Of a stretch of DNA of 64,000 bases, positions 53,801 to 59,608 are shown one piece after another. The stretch is from contig NZ_CP051666.1 in NCBI RefSeq assembly GCF_012848475.1, positions 209,501 through 273,500 of the forward strand, read 5' to 3'. A model generated the notes under the pieces. That model did no database searches and was not told the DNA's origin. It worked only from the letters and a program-made list of their open reading frames with translations. The translations under genes and the position numbers were made by a program. This stretch comes from Marinobacterium sp. LSUCC0821. GTDB lineage: Bacteria > Pseudomonadota > Gammaproteobacteria > Pseudomonadales > Balneatricaceae. The number at the start of each line of letters is the position of its first letter. The stretch's first letter is position 1.

Positions 53801-54238
53801 ATGTCTAATCTATTGATTGCTGTTGGTACTGTTTATGGCTCAACGATAGATCTAGCAGAGGAGGCGATAGAGGTTTTGGCCGCCATGGGGCACTCGGCTG
53901 AGATGTTCATGGATTTCCAGACCAATCAACTCAACTCTGACTCAATTCTTTTGATTATGACCGCCTCCACCGGTATGGGGGATATCCCGGATAACCTGAT
54001 GGGCTTCTATTGCGACCTTTTAGATGAAAAGCCCGATCTTAAGGATCAACGCTTTGCGATAGTGGGTTTGGGGGATTCTGGTTACGACTATTTCAACGGT
54101 GCAGCTAGACGTCTTAATGAGCTGCTCTTAGAACTTGGCGCTCAGCCTGTTGCCGAGACTCTGCTGGTCGATGCAAATGAGCACCCAGACCCAGCAGAAC
54201 CTATCGCTAGCTGGTTGGCGACGTTTAACGCGTATTAA
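53801..54238 (+). CDS. Flavodoxin (MioC-like)
   Basis: Short-chain FMN-binding flavodoxin of 145 residues. The phosphate loop VGTVYGSTIDLAEE is at the N-terminus, and TASTGMGDIPDNL and GLGDSGYDYFNGAARRL form the flavin-binding loops; the layout matches MioC. Its partner oxidoreductase is unknown. Its last 14 bases overlap the end of the convergent nitroreductase gene. Confidence 0.92.
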   Translation: MSNLLIAVGTVYGSTIDLAEEAIEVLAAMGHSAEMFMDFQTNQLNSDSILLIMTASTGMGDIPDNLMGFYCDLLDEKPDLKDQRFAIVGLGDSGYDYFNGAARRLNELLLELGAQPVAETLLVDANEHPDPAEPIASWLATFNAY

Positions 54239-54962
54239 AACCCTGTCCGTTGAGTGATTTCATAAGGGTTGGTCGCGACTCTTTGCTTAGGCGTTTAGCC
54301 ATCTGTTCACTCCAGGCTTCACTTACATCCCCATTGGTTCGTTCAATATAGTAGTCGCGCGTAGTCTTATCATAAGCGTTGCTATGCTCTGAGTAGCGAT
54401 CGGCTTGGTAGCCATTGCTATGCAGTACCGCATTGAGTGGAAGTCGAGGCTTCAGGCCTGGGTCTTGATCTGGATAGCCGAGACACATTCCAAATAGTGG
54501 GTAGACATGCTTAGGAAGTGATAGCAGCTCAATCACTCGTTCAGGGTTATTGCGAAGTGCGCCAATATAGACCCCACCAAGTCCTAATGACTCCGCAGCG
54601 ATAAGTATGTTTTGTGCTACCAATGCTGCATCAATCGATGAGTTGAGTAGCTGCTCTGCGTAGCCCGCATCTGGTGATAGACCAGCTTTTACTGCATTAC
54701 CAATCAGACGGCTGTTATCAGCACAGAAGACTAAGAATCGTGGGGCTGAGCCAACATATGCCTGGTTGCTGGCACACTCCATCAGTCCGTTTCGAAGGGT
54801 CTGATCGGTGATGTCGATGATTGAGTAAGCTTGAATGAAACTTGAACTCGAAGCTGCCTGTCCTGCAAGAACGAGTTCCTGAAGTGTCTCATCAGAGATT
54901 GCATCAGGTTTGAATTTACGGATTGAACGGTGGCTCTTTAGGAGTTCGATTGTACTGTTCAT
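54225..54962 (-). CDS. Oxygen-insensitive NADPH nitroreductase (NfsA-like)
   Basis: FMN-dependent nitroreductase-family protein of 245 residues, with SHRSIRKFKPDAISDETL at the N-terminus, then LVLAGQAASSSSFIQAYSII and GLGGVYIGALRNNP typical of NfsA/FRP. It would reduce nitro compounds or quinones with NADPH. It is the last gene of a four-gene operon, overlapping the AlkB-like gene by 4 bp. Confidence 0.92.
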   Translation of the reverse strand: MNSTIELLKSHRSIRKFKPDAISDETLQELVLAGQAASSSSFIQAYSIIDITDQTLRNGLMECASNQAYVGSAPRFLVFCADNSRLIGNAVKAGLSPDAGYAEQLLNSSIDAALVAQNILIAAESLGLGGVYIGALRNNPERVIELLSLPKHVYPLFGMCLGYPDQDPGLKPRLPLNAVLHSNGYQADRYSEHSNAYDKTTRDYYIERTNGDVSEAWSEQMAKRLSKESRPTLMKSLNGQGFNTR

Positions 54963-55543
54963 GGCTGCTCTATATTGTAGATATATCGAAAGGTCAGATT
55001 AATTCTTGGCTGGCTTACTCGCAAGCGTTTTGGCAGTGCGTGTTGCCACTGTTGTTGCAGTTCAGGTCCCATGATTAGAAGGGATCCAGAGGCGAGCTCA
55101 ATATCTATTCTCTGTTTTGGTGAGCGTCGATTTCGAAGTTGGAAGGTTCTCTCAGCCCCGAGTGAAAGCGAAGCAATCACCGGTGCGGCGCCTAACTCTC
55201 TCTCGTCGTCACTGTGCCACCCCATATGGTCTTTACCGTCTCTATAGAGATTCGCCAAAAGGGCGTTAAACCTTGAATTTGTAATAGATGAGATACGGTT
55301 TTTAAGTGTCTGAATGTAATCAGGAAATCCCGATCCATACAAAGTAAGACCAGAGTAGGTGTAGGTTATGCCCTCATCAGCAATAAATGCCTGCAGTCTG
55401 GGGATAGGGTATTGCTTACCATAGACACTGATTTTATCTTGGCGCCAGTCGATTGAACTCTTTAATTGATTAAAGAGCTGCTCGGCCTCGGACTGCGCTA
55501 GAAACTCTGGGATGTATTGGTAATCAGCTTGGTTGTTCAGCAC
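54959..55543 (-). CDS. AlkB-like 2-oxoglutarate/Fe(II) dioxygenase
   Basis: AlkB-family enzymes repair alkylated bases in DNA or RNA by oxidative demethylation. The 194-residue product shows the metal ligands H110 and D112 (GWHSDDE) and H168 (WQHALPK), the 2-oxoglutarate-binding arginine in RINLTFR, and SLGAERTFQLR. It resembles ALKBH2/3-type AlkB proteins common in marine bacteria. It lies one base after the PRPP-synthetase-like gene and overlaps the nitroreductase gene. Confidence 0.92.
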   Translation of the reverse strand: MLNNQADYQYIPEFLAQSEAEQLFNQLKSSIDWRQDKISVYGKQYPIPRLQAFIADEGITYTYSGLTLYGSGFPDYIQTLKNRISSITNSRFNALLANLYRDGKDHMGWHSDDERELGAAPVIASLSLGAERTFQLRNRRSPKQRIDIELASGSLLIMGPELQQQWQHALPKRLRVSQPRINLTFRYIYNIEQP

Positions 55544-55544
55544 G

Positions 55545-56429
55545 TTATTTTAAATAGTGGTTAATCTTCTCTGCCAAGGTGTACGTCAGATCCAACTTGT
55601 TAGATGAATGCGCAATGCTATTACAGGTAATCACTTCAGCTTTTTTAGCAAGTAATTTGTAAGCATCGCCAGCAAAAATCCCGTGAACCCCAATAATTAG
55701 CGCTTTAGGCATATCTGCACTTTCCAAGTGCTCTAGGGTCTTCAGCATGGTACGCCCACTGGAGATGATGTCGTCGACCAGTACCGGCCTGTGATTTGTC
55801 CAGTGGCTTAGATGGGGTGTTGAGACCTCTACATCGTAATCCCCAGAGCGCTCTTTAAGGAGAATCTCATACGGGAGTGATGCATCACTTGCGATCGTCG
55901 AAACCCACTGCTCACTTTCAGAATCTGGTCCGATCAAGAGTAGGGGATCATCTAGAGTTTTAAGGTATTCAACTATGACTTGGCGGGCAGTAGTGACCAT
56001 CCCTTCAAGCGTGTATATGCAGTCAAGCGTTGGGTAACGATGAAGGTGAGGGTCAACGGTTACTAGGCCATCAAAAGCGAGTGAGAGGTGTTTAGCAAAA
56101 TGGGCAGAGGTGATCGACTCTCCTGGATTAAAGCGTTTGTCTTGGCGCATGTAGGGTAAATAGGGGGTCACCAACAGGTTGCGCTTTGCACCAAGCTCAC
56201 GGGCATTGTGTGCAAAGGTAAGTAACGGAAACAGTTTCTCGTTGGGTTGGTAAAGATCACAAAAAATGATCACATCCTGGTCAGTTACATCGGTAAGGAT
56301 GCGCAAATAACTCTCTCCGTCCGGAAAAAGGCGCGTATCAAAGCTGCCGATGCTGGCACCAATATTTGAAGCTAATTTTTCACCAATCGGGTGGCCTGGG
56401 GATAGGTTAAAAAAGGTTCTTGGCAACAT
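55545..56429 (-). CDS. Atypical ribose-phosphate pyrophosphokinase (PRPP synthetase-like)
   Basis: This is a divergent Prs homologue of 294 residues, shorter than standard Prs of about 315. Conserved parts are FPDGESYLRI, PYLPYMRQDKRF (residues 90-100, ATP-binding flexible loop region), VDPHLHR (125-131), and the PRPP loop VLVDDIISSGRTM (216-228). Its start abuts the stop of the AMP-phosphorylase-like gene without a gap, suggesting linked use of ribose phosphates. The housekeeping prs is presumably elsewhere. Confidence 0.88.
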   Translation of the reverse strand: MLPRTFFNLSPGHPIGEKLASNIGASIGSFDTRLFPDGESYLRILTDVTDQDVIIFCDLYQPNEKLFPLLTFAHNARELGAKRNLLVTPYLPYMRQDKRFNPGESITSAHFAKHLSLAFDGLVTVDPHLHRYPTLDCIYTLEGMVTTARQVIVEYLKTLDDPLLLIGPDSESEQWVSTIASDASLPYEILLKERSGDYDVEVSTPHLSHWTNHRPVLVDDIISSGRTMLKTLEHLESADMPKALIIGVHGIFAGDAYKLLAKKAEVITCNSIAHSSNKLDLTYTLAEKINHYLK

Positions 56430-57941
56430 TTAAATCCCCTCGATTTTAACAATTGAAAGATGTTCAAGCAGGTAATCCACCGCGTAGTTTAGCTCTCCTA
56501 CATGCTCTGCATGTACGGTTAGAAGGGGTTGGTCTTTAGCAACTTGATGTCCACACTTTACATGTAGATCAACGCCTGCGGCCAAATCTGCTGGCGCGCC
56601 TGCAAGTTTTGCAACCTTGGCAAGCAAGCGATTATCAATTTCAGAGACAACGCCTGCCACTTCGGAAAGCATCTCATATCGATAGTGGGCAACAGGTGGA
56701 GAGGTGAACTTCCCTTGAGCCTCACAGATCTTCACAAATTGGCTCCAGGCCTGTCCGTTTTTGATCAGTTCAAGCGCAAGGCCTTTCCCCTTGCCAGCAG
56801 CCACTTTCCCAGAGAGTTCAAGCATTGCACCCGCCAATAGGGTTGCTCGATCAAGTAGGTCTTGTGGTGCCTCCTCCTGGTTCTGCAGCACACGTAAAAT
56901 ATCGCGTGCTTCAAGTGCAGGGCCAATACCCTCACCAATAGGCTGCGATCCATCAGTTTTTAAGATGGCCAGTTTGATACCTAAGTTTTCGGCCACCCGT
57001 GAGAAGCTAGATGCTAATTGATCTGCCGCTTGTTGGCTGCGAACCTTAGCCGTTGGTCCGACTGGAATGTCGATGAGTACGTGCGTAGCACCTGCTGCGA
57101 CCTTCTTAGAGAGTACCGAAGCGATTAGTTGACCTTCGCTGTCGATATCCAGCGCTCGTTCAACCTGAATGAGTAGGTCGTCGGCGGGGCTCAGTCTTAC
57201 TGAACCGCCCCAGGCTAAGCATCCCCCTTGACTATTCACAACATCGCGCATCTGCTCCAGCGTTAGGCTGACATTCGTAAGTGTCTCCATTGTGTCCGCA
57301 GTACCAGCAGGTGAGGTGATGGCGCGAGATGATGTTTTGGGGATGGTGAGGCCGGCAGCCGTTAAAATTGAGACTACAATTGGAGTGGTCCTGTTACCCG
57401 GTAGGCCTCCAACACAGTGCTTATCAAGAACTTGATCCAAGCCCCAATCAATGGTGCTGCCTGCGTTGATCATGGCTCGAGTTAAATCTGTAATCTCTTG
57501 GTCATCGAGTTTGTCATCACCGCAAGCTGTGATGAATGCAGCTAGGTGGACGTCAGCATATCGCTCATCAACGATATCATTGATGATCTCTTGGAACTGT
57601 TCTGCATTGATACGGTGACCATACACTTTTGAGCGTACATAGGAGAGGGACTGCACTGGACGAGGGTGAGAGATCCAGATCGACTCTCCTCCTGTTAGCC
57701 CCATGCGCTCCCAGGCTGACTCAGAAAAGCCAACATGCCCCTCTTCAATGAGTGATTCTGTAACGATATTAAGTGTGGCGATGATGTGTTGAGATTCGCT
57801 GGCAACTAAAACTCGGGTCAGGCTATTAAAACCCTCCGACTTACAAACAGGGCTGTCACCTCTTAAGTAGATGTAGGGTTCATGATGGGTATCGATCCCT
57901 AAACGGCAAGCTCTAAGGGGATTCATCTTCTCTGGAAGCAT
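56430..57941 (-). CDS. AMP phosphorylase-like thymidine phosphorylase family protein
   Basis: The 503-residue protein has the three-part layout of archaeal AMP phosphorylases: an N-terminal double-psi-like extension (about residues 1-90) absent from DeoA, then the helical and glycosyltransferase domains. Motifs DKHCVGGLPGNRT (173-185) and SSRAITSPAGTADTMET (204-220) match the AMP phosphorylase type and differ from the KHSTGGVGD of classic thymidine phosphorylase. Expected reaction: nucleoside monophosphate plus phosphate to base plus ribose 1,5-bisphosphate, by family. The first ATG is at 57941; another at 57926 has a better-looking upstream GAGAAG but too close a spacing. Confidence 0.87.
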   Translation of the reverse strand: MLPEKMNPLRACRLGIDTHHEPYIYLRGDSPVCKSEGFNSLTRVLVASESQHIIATLNIVTESLIEEGHVGFSESAWERMGLTGGESIWISHPRPVQSLSYVRSKVYGHRINAEQFQEIINDIVDERYADVHLAAFITACGDDKLDDQEITDLTRAMINAGSTIDWGLDQVLDKHCVGGLPGNRTTPIVVSILTAAGLTIPKTSSRAITSPAGTADTMETLTNVSLTLEQMRDVVNSQGGCLAWGGSVRLSPADDLLIQVERALDIDSEGQLIASVLSKKVAAGATHVLIDIPVGPTAKVRSQQAADQLASSFSRVAENLGIKLAILKTDGSQPIGEGIGPALEARDILRVLQNQEEAPQDLLDRATLLAGAMLELSGKVAAGKGKGLALELIKNGQAWSQFVKICEAQGKFTSPPVAHYRYEMLSEVAGVVSEIDNRLLAKVAKLAGAPADLAAGVDLHVKCGHQVAKDQPLLTVHAEHVGELNYAVDYLLEHLSIVKIEGI

Positions 57942-58077: not shown

Positions 58078-58887
58078 ATGCACCCGAACGAAAACCTACC
58101 TTTAACAGTCAATCCTCAGAAAGCACTCGCCTTTGGTGTCGAGAAAGCGCTGCTTGTTGAGTTGTTAGAGCAGTTCGCTGTGTTAACGCCAGATTCCCGT
58201 TTTACTATTTCTACCTCTCGGATTCAGCAACGTTGTCCTTTTTGGAGCAGCGCGCAAATCGCTCTGTACTTAGAGGAGCTTCTGCAGGCGGGAGTCTTTT
58301 CCGCATCGTCTGAGGGGGAGCTTTGGCACATCAGTTTCAATGATCAACTGCCTGTTCAGAGCGACTCTGTTGTAAGTTCACATCTTTCTGAAAATAGAGA
58401 GCGAGAGCCAGTTCTTAAGCCTGAACCTGTGGCTCCATCAGAAAAGATTCAGAAACCGCAAAGATCAAAAGTTCCGAGTTTTGGTGGCGGTTATCGTCGT
58501 TCTGCCAGTGAGTTGGATGAGATATTTGCCGCGGCAGAAGCGAAGAAGCGTCAGCAGATACGCATGGAGTTAAGCTGGCAGCCGACACAAGCATTTTTTG
58601 AACAACTGCAGATGCATGGCATTCAGAATGAGTTTGCCCAATCTTGCCTGCCAGAGTTCACGCTTTACTACCTGGATCAGTCTGATTCAGAGACGACTTG
58701 GAACCAAAAGCTTCTCGCTTGGGTGCGTCGTGCGGTTCGAGATGAGCAGAGCCGCACTTCAAAAGAGCAGCGTTTGAACAACCCTTCACATTCCGGTGGA
58801 CACAATGAAAAAGGTCGACGAGATACTCGCGAGAACCGAAAGCGGGTTACCGCAGCAGTCATGGACCTCAAAAACCTCGACTGGTGA
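58078..58887 (+). CDS. DnaT-like ssDNA-binding domain protein
   Basis: The 269-residue protein has an N-terminal winged-helix-like region (about 20-105) and a basic linker. A C-terminal DnaT-like single-strand-DNA-binding domain follows (about 165-230, LSWQPTQAFFEQLQMHGI ... TTWNQKLLAWVRRA), then a charged tail. DnaT acts in primosome assembly and replication restart. Its end overlaps the next gene, a lambda-P-like protein, by about 83 bp, indicating a functional pair. Confidence 0.82.
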   Translation: MHPNENLPLTVNPQKALAFGVEKALLVELLEQFAVLTPDSRFTISTSRIQQRCPFWSSAQIALYLEELLQAGVFSASSEGELWHISFNDQLPVQSDSVVSSHLSENREREPVLKPEPVAPSEKIQKPQRSKVPSFGGGYRRSASELDEIFAAAEAKKRQQIRMELSWQPTQAFFEQLQMHGIQNEFAQSCLPEFTLYYLDQSDSETTWNQKLLAWVRRAVRDEQSRTSKEQRLNNPSHSGGHNEKGRRDTRENRKRVTAAVMDLKNLDW

Positions 58888-59608
58888 TCTTTCCGAGGTA
58901 GCTGAAGAGTCTACTACACGTCGAGTGATCAGTGATCAGACCAAAGCCTTGGTCAATATGGTCTTTGCTCGCTTCATGGCTATCTATGGCCATAAGTTCA
59001 AAAGCGCCTTTGAGACTGAGCAAGAGATTATGCTCGCTAAGCGTGAATGGGCGATGAGCATTCAGCGTTACAGTGAAAATGAGCTGGTGGCTGCAGTAAA
59101 TCGCTGTAAAGCAGAACTTGCTTGGATGCCCTCCATATCGGAATTTCTAAAATTGTTGAATGAGGTAGGTGGTGATCATGGCTTACCTTCTGCCTTCGCC
59201 GCTTATCAAGAGGCGTGCAAATCTGCAGAGCACCCTTTGCAGCACAGTTGGTCGCATCCCGCTATCTACTTTGCTGGTCGTGAGACGGGTTGGTTTGAGC
59301 TTCGTAGCGAATCTGAAAGTGAAATCTTTCCACGTTTCAGCTACCACTATGATCTACTCTGTCGACGCGTTCGCGAGGGTGAGCGACTAGATATCCCTAA
59401 CCCTATTGCCATTGAGCAGAAGAGTGATGTGACGCAAGCTAACCAAATGCTTGAGTTTGCAAAGCGCTATCAGATTGATGAGAGTGAGGCGTGTCAATTG
59501 CTCTACTATTTGACCCTGCCTAAGGGCTCTAAAGTGCGCGCTCGTCAGTTTGCACTAAGTCAAGAAACTGCCAACACGCATGGGTGGCAGTTACCCACTG
59601 AGGCCTAA
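58805..59608 (+). CDS. Replication protein P-like (phage lambda P family) protein
   Basis: The product of about 267 residues contains a lambda-P-like region (FARFMAIYGHKFKSAF ... EREWAMSI-like, then ELAWMPSISEFLKLL). Lambda P loads the DnaB helicase. The frame could start at GTG 58796; I chose ATG 58805, which has GGTGGA upstream. No integrase, lysis or structural phage gene is near, so it appears to be a resident chromosomal gene paired with the DnaT-like protein rather than a prophage part. The role as helicase loader is inference. Confidence 0.8.
   Translation: MKKVDEILARTESGLPQQSWTSKTSTGDLSEVAEESTTRRVISDQTKALVNMVFARFMAIYGHKFKSAFETEQEIMLAKREWAMSIQRYSENELVAAVNRCKAELAWMPSISEFLKLLNEVGGDHGLPSAFAAYQEACKSAEHPLQHSWSHPAIYFAGRETGWFELRSESESEIFPRFSYHYDLLCRRVREGERLDIPNPIAIEQKSDVTQANQMLEFAKRYQIDESEACQLLYYLTLPKGSKVRARQFALSQETANTHGWQLPTEA

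Follow-up and report, generated by a model that had tools for sequence, protein, structure and literature searches.

An NMP (nucleoside-5'-monophosphate) phosphorylase has been described from T. kodakarensis, which cleaves AMP, CMP, and UMP and forms ribose 1,5-bisphosphate (R15P), and R15P is known to be converted to PRPP by PhnN (PMC9700705). With this archaeal NMP (AMP) phosphorylase (TK0352, PDB 4ga4-4ga6) the product of a gene from Marinobacterium sp. LSUCC0821, here called gene 1, has in common the phosphate and ribose motifs and the whole fold with its N-terminal domain (TM 0.93; 36% identity when the structures are aligned). It differs from the archaeal NMP phosphorylase of the pentose bisphosphate pathway in that it belongs to a bacterial branch, has a partner resembling PRPP synthetase (Prs), here called gene 2, and occurs in a genome without R15P isomerase. 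The catalytic domains of DeoA and pyrimidine-nucleoside phosphorylase (PyNP) are homologous to those of gene 1 (23-29% identity), but these enzymes lack its N-terminal domain and differ in the substrate motifs. Gene 2 shares fold (TM 0.83-0.88) and catalytic residues with the archaeal short and the canonical bacterial PRPP synthetases, whereas its family is a separate clade with a residue set of its own and in the relatives always comes in addition to a housekeeping Prs. PhnN has the unrelated fold of a P-loop kinase, and gene 2, which does not belong to that family, could at most be its functional stand-in. Like gene 2, however, PhnN is found together with phosphorylases of this family, fused to them and mostly in genomes without the Prs-like gene.

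The window, i.e. the whole stretch of 64,000 nucleotides which was analysed, is located on a single 2.36 Mb contig with an estimated completeness of 99%. The closest named relatives are Marinobacterium, Nitrincola, Amphritea, and Neptuniibacter. An earlier note on this DNA had described two minus-strand genes abutting without a gap, and both reading frames are found where it had placed them, with the TAA of gene 1 and the ATG of gene 2 separated by zero bases (Table 1). A GAGGGG located 6 nt upstream of this ATG reads like a candidate coupled ribosome site. No RNA structure exceeding that of shuffled sequences was found at the junction, and a scan for promoters and terminators yielded matches no more numerous than in shuffles. 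At least five relatives have an AlkB gene after the pair, and the AlkB-like and NfsA-like genes (window 54225-55543) trail it in several Oceanospirillales relatives. Upstream of the operon and divergent to it, overlapping reading frames at 58078-59608 of the window encode a DnaT-domain protein and a lambda-P-like protein, which look like a helicase-loader pair. An ordinary prs is also present in the genome (C1:53170-54069).

Table 1. The phosphorylase/Prs-like pair and the genes following it (positions in the window).
Feature	Position	Strand	Remarks
Gene 1, archaeal-type nucleoside-5'-monophosphate phosphorylase homologue, 503 aa	56430..57941	-	NF003338/TIGR02645, extra N-terminal domain
Gene 2, PRK07199-type PRPP-synthetase homologue, 294 aa	55545..56429	-	catalytic residues kept
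Gene 1/gene 2 junction	56427..56441	-	GAGGGG 56441-56436, TAA 56432-56430, ATG 56429-56427; read from sequence
AlkB-like 2OG-Fe(II) oxygenase	54959..55543	-	next operon gene; GTG start 1 base past Prs-like stop
NfsA-like nitroreductase	54225..54962	-	last operon gene; 4-base overlap with AlkB stop; NF008033, 293.9 bits

In profile searches gene 1 was matched nearly over its full length, including the N-terminal domain, by NF003338 (665.6 bits, cut-off 434) and again nearly full length by TIGR02645 (590.7 bits, cut-off 434.6). The AMP_phos equivalog TIGR03327 yielded 488.6 bits, under its cut-off of 535, and gene 1 is therefore filed as an archaeal-type phosphorylase and not as a proven AMP phosphorylase. 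An AlphaFold model (pLDDT 90) could be superposed over its whole length with AMP phosphorylase 4ga5 at the TM score given above, as compared to 0.69-0.73 for pyrimidine and thymidine phosphorylases. The extra N-terminal domain claimed in the earlier note is borne out by these full-length matches in both profile and structure. The nearest solved structure is that of the T. kodakarensis AMP phosphorylase, for which this organism is also named in the literature (PMC8376864). Gene 1 has the GGxPGN(K/R)T loop, the TSSRAITS-AGTAD segment, and the N-terminal domain, i.e. the features of NMP phosphorylases. Across the bacterial family the substrate sites are archaeal-like, reading GGxPGN(K/R)T, KTSSRAITSxAGTAD, and WGG..L(S/A)PADD, where DeoA has GGVGD, MISGRGLGHTGGTLD, and IGQT..LAPAD(K/R/Q)R. 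The earlier note is to be corrected in that KHCVGGLPGNRT is the bacterial form of the loop, as compared to VHSIGGVPGNKT in the T. kodakarensis enzyme and KHSTGGVGD in DeoA. Judged from family and motifs, gene 1 is very likely an NMP phosphorylase. Its annotation as thymidine phosphorylase was ruled out by profile scores and motifs, and it is hardly credible that the NCBI name is right, with gene 1 a phosphorylase of thymidine or pyrimidine nucleosides and gene 2 a bystander. This reading is backed by the NCBIfam family name only. It is contradicted by scores far under the cut-offs of the DeoA/PyNP equivalogs (189.6 versus 269, 157.1 versus 559, and 139.9 versus 570.7 bits), by TSSRAITSPAGTAD in place of the DeoA motif ISGRGLGHTGGTLD, by WGG..LSPADD, as found in the T. 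kodakarensis AMP phosphorylase, instead of IGQT..LAPADKR, and by the conserved pairing of the two genes.

Gene 2 had been called a short Prs homologue, and its length as well as its scores agree with this. NF005537/PRK07199 was matched with 339.6 bits (cut-off 322) and the PRPP synthetase profile TIGR01251 with 161.1 bits (cut-off 113), and archaeal PRPP synthetases were the top fold matches of the model (pLDDT 91), whereas a search of gene 2 for the PhnN P-loop domain (TIGR02322) gave no match. The Prs-superfamily residues FxDGE, RQD, H, PD, KxR, and DD..T are kept in nearly all of 121 Prs-like sequences, and the residues of the site for ATP, Mg, and ribose 5-phosphate (R5P), namely F35, D37, E39, R95, Q96, H128, D169, K192, R194, D219, D220, and T227, are likewise kept in these relatives. 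These sites have in part been described for E. coli Prs (PMC9232217); the remaining positions are those of the Prs family in general. Another set, consisting of H130, R131, E171, S172, W175, G196, D197, and a mostly basic position 226, is invariant or nearly so in the 121 sequences and specific for the family. E171 occurs in all 121 of them and S172 in 118, while position 226 is mostly R or H and sometimes Q, K, or T. As a set these residues are absent from the canonical and archaeal Prs compared; D197 alone also occurs in one archaeal Prs. E171 and S172 stand in place of Gly-Gly or Gly-Ala, just after the aspartate which holds Mg on the C1-C3 hydroxyls and next to the reacting oxygen. Gene 2 thus lacks the Gly-Gly/Gly-Ala after the Mg-binding aspartate and the glycine in the R5P loop which mark a canonical Prs. 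The divergence stated in the earlier note is seen in the phylogeny as well, where the Prs-like sequences form one clade separate from the 11 canonical and three archaeal Prs sampled. As an ordinary Prs is additionally present in 37 of 37 relatives, the housekeeping role does not fall to gene 2.

Conserved pairing in other genomes had been set beforehand as a test, and it was found. Among 249 Pseudomonadota genomes 31 contained both genes, two the phosphorylase only, none the Prs-like gene only, and 216 neither (Fisher p about 1.6e-37, uncorrected for kinship). All 31 genomes with the Prs-like gene thus had the phosphorylase, and in 30 of them the Prs-like gene came immediately after it in the same orientation. 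The Prs-like gene likewise came next in 18 of 18 near relatives carrying the phosphorylase. In a scan of named genomes, Bacteroidota and Verrucomicrobia were found to have the phosphorylase as well, and the next gene was the Prs-like one in 63 of the 84 loci parsed. Besides Pseudomonadota and Bacteroidota, both families were seen in a few further phyla, and one Prs-like gene is located on a Criblamydia plasmid. Intact Prs-like genes occur in two genomes where a phosphorylase of the gene 1 family is absent, with an AlkB-like neighbour in G009 (L241) and an NfsA-like neighbour in G018 (L242), and some genomes have a phosphorylase with no adjacent Prs-like gene. The pair is a real, conserved, and widespread feature of bacteria. 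It is also under-described; no paper treating the two bacterial genes as a pair was found in the literature.

No R15P isomerase over the cut-off was found in the 249 Pseudomonadota genomes. In the genome of the window (G000) the isomerase profile TIGR00511 had no match at E 1e-30, by which an exit via an archaeal-type R15P isomerase is ruled out there; sub-threshold matches in other genomes are probably MtnA paralogues. PhnN (TIGR02322) was not found in this genome at E 1e-25, and its occurrence in seven of the 31 pair genomes equals the background rate. The other 24 have neither R15P isomerase nor PhnN, so R15P would be orphaned in them with regard to these two families, and the Prs-like gene is the one constant companion there. 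The converse arrangement was found in a genome without Prs-like gene (G276), where a PhnN domain replaces the N-terminal domain of the phosphorylase (TIGR02322, 168.8 bits, cut-off 156). Such full-length PhnN-phosphorylase fusions occur in nine of 150 genomes of one bacterial family, and the fusion is regarded as real in view of the TIGR02322 score over the cut-off, the P-loop, and its recurrence in nine genomes. Several further long phosphorylase reading frames were rejected as fusions since they had over-extended starts only. Of the nine fusion genomes, seven have no Prs-like gene, and the two which have one possess an unfused phosphorylase in addition; in G448 this unfused phosphorylase adjoins the Prs-like gene. 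Among eight checked family members with unfused phosphorylase only, the Prs-like gene is present in seven. Comparing fusion-only (0/6) to unfused-only genomes (7/8) yields a Fisher p of 0.005, uncorrected for kinship. This exchange is the strongest evidence that the job of the partner may be the conversion of R15P to PRPP.

The surroundings of the fusion point in a similar direction. The product of nadC is a PRPP user, and nadC is located near the fusion genes (L118, L243-L251, L260, L261, and L263), namely upstream in the loci with a readable flank, with a TctC/Bug receptor often downstream. In L260, L261, and L263 genes of nicotinate catabolism are contained in the fusion cluster. Matches in fusion clusters, each from one locus, were obtained for 6-hydroxynicotinate monooxygenase (E 9.5e-168), 2,5-dihydroxypyridine dioxygenase (1.6e-120), maleate isomerase (3.8e-110), and the deformylase (3.9e-89). 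In the fused phosphorylase the base pocket differs and reads WNGRLNHS..DD. The combination of fusion, nadC, and nicotinate genes suggests a PRPP-recycling route from quinolinate to nicotinate. NadC would form NaMN from quinolinate and PRPP, the phosphorylase domain would cleave NaMN with phosphate to nicotinate and R15P, and the PhnN domain would regenerate PRPP from R15P and ATP, with nicotinate passing into the nic pathway. An occurrence of bug27 beside nadC and phnN has previously been noted in Variovorax (PMC11452294).

For the pair in the window a route is proposed in which the phosphorylase would convert a 5'-mononucleotide and phosphate to the free base and R15P, and the Prs-like enzyme, standing in for the unrelated PhnN, would form PRPP from R15P with an adenine nucleotide as the phosphate donor. 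PRPP could then be passed on to phosphoribosyltransferases, and in many relatives a neighbouring RNase could deliver the mononucleotides. That genes 1 and 2 catalyse these consecutive steps has close to an even chance. The earlier note had put forward the same route. It fits the near-obligatory pairing, the isomerase search with no match over the cut-off, the usual lack of PhnN, the exchange for PhnN, the changes at the C1/Mg site with intact catalytic residues, the position of the fusion beside nadC, and the joint induction in microoxia of genes annotated alike in Bradyrhizobium diazoefficiens (PMC6515984); both substrates and the direction of flow are what we infer from the observed families, fold, pairing, active-site conservation, and exchange. 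An R15P-using, PRPP-forming enzyme of the Prs fold is the best-supported reading of gene 2, at about even odds, because the Prs residues kept allow the R5P reaction and by Prs chemistry AMP or ADP could also receive the 1-phosphate from R15P. Slightly less probable is the joint proposal of a switch from R5P to R15P within the Prs fold, which replaces PhnN, together with a PhnN-fusion/NadC cycle making nicotinate from quinolinate for catabolism. In the Prs fold it is the C1 hydroxyl that receives a diphosphate, and use of R15P means another register of attack. Against the route are also the Prs-like genes without phosphorylase in G009 and G018 and the phosphorylases without adjacent Prs-like gene elsewhere, the lack of kinship correction in the fusion comparison, and the differing base pocket of the fused phosphorylase.

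Gene 2 keeps every residue by which E. coli Prs binds ATP, Mg, and R5P. This agrees equally with gene 2 being an ordinary Prs, which would form PRPP and AMP from R5P and ATP, so that fresh PRPP salvages the freed bases and its AMP is cleaved again. The TIGR01251 score and the archaeal PRPP synthetases as top fold matches agree with this. It is nevertheless unlikely, as every relative already has a canonical Prs, E171/S172 are family-specific where a true Prs has Gly-Gly or Gly-Ala, R15P would be left without a consumer from the two families searched in 24 of 31 genomes, and the exchange for PhnN is left unexplained. Still less probable is that gene 2 forms another diphosphorylated compound instead of PRPP. 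Adps, a Prs homologue of phages, reportedly does so with ADP-ribose, a phage Prs homologue adjoins nicotinamide phosphoribosyltransferase, and the changes in gene 2 are located around the acceptor. Such phage matches are only about 28% identical, however, and a phosphorylase as the partner and PhnN in the same slot speak against it; an identity of gene 2 with the NARP1-like Prs of phages was rejected since the homologues are too distant.

A third use of the fold would be transfer of the 1-phosphate from R15P to AMP (or ADP), yielding R5P and ADP (or ATP), with R5P going to phosphoketolase, so that the ribose of RNA would serve as an energy source when oxygen is low or the cells starve. This is the usual Prs reaction backwards, minus one phosphate, and by reasoning the chemically closest use of R15P for a Prs active site. 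Larger clusters around the pair, frequent outside the lineage of the window, bear on it. A beta-CASP/RMMBL RNase is found in 55 of 92 loci parsed, where it mostly adjoins the phosphorylase directly; 19 loci have a divergent phosphoketolase and 13 an acetate kinase. Of the 31 pair genomes surveyed, 14 have the RNase beside the pair or inside its cluster. Where phosphoketolase and acetate kinase belong to the cluster, they suggest that R5P and not PRPP is the end product. In L112 and L113 genes for the Prs-like protein, phosphoketolase, beta-CASP RNase, and phosphorylase form one run, and in L113 genes resembling Pta and AckA come after it. Three adjacent genes of Bradyrhizobium diazoefficiens, bll3115 (MBL), bll3116 (Prs), and bll3117 (TP), are induced together in microoxia, with protein log2 values of 2.9, 4.4, and 2.1 and 15-, 8-, and 5-fold higher transcripts, respectively, and a phosphoketolase is induced likewise (PMC6515984); the three genes were matched to the present families by product names and gene order only. 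Formation of R5P by gene 2 is still rather improbable, as the same slot is held in the fusions by PhnN, whose product is PRPP and not R5P, and the step would be uphill by an estimated value of about 10 kJ/mol. In addition, beta-CASP RNase and divergent phosphoketolase adjoin in genomes without the pair (G043, G132, G136, G210, and G314), and both were absent from the genome of the window at the limits used. They are therefore regarded as helpers and not as obligate steps, and the idea that the route requires phosphoketolase was rejected.

The family names thymidine phosphorylase and ribose-phosphate diphosphokinase look wrong or incomplete for these two families. If the proposed route from mononucleotides via R15P to PRPP is true, R15P would be widespread as an intermediate in bacteria and not confined to the phosphonate and Rubisco pathways, an established fold would have gained a new substrate, and the ribose of RNA or nucleotides could be led straight to PRPP. 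The PhnN-phosphorylase fusion makes this idea directly testable, and the proposed role of the fusion would offer an explanation for the quinolinate receptors (Bug27) beside nadC and phnN.
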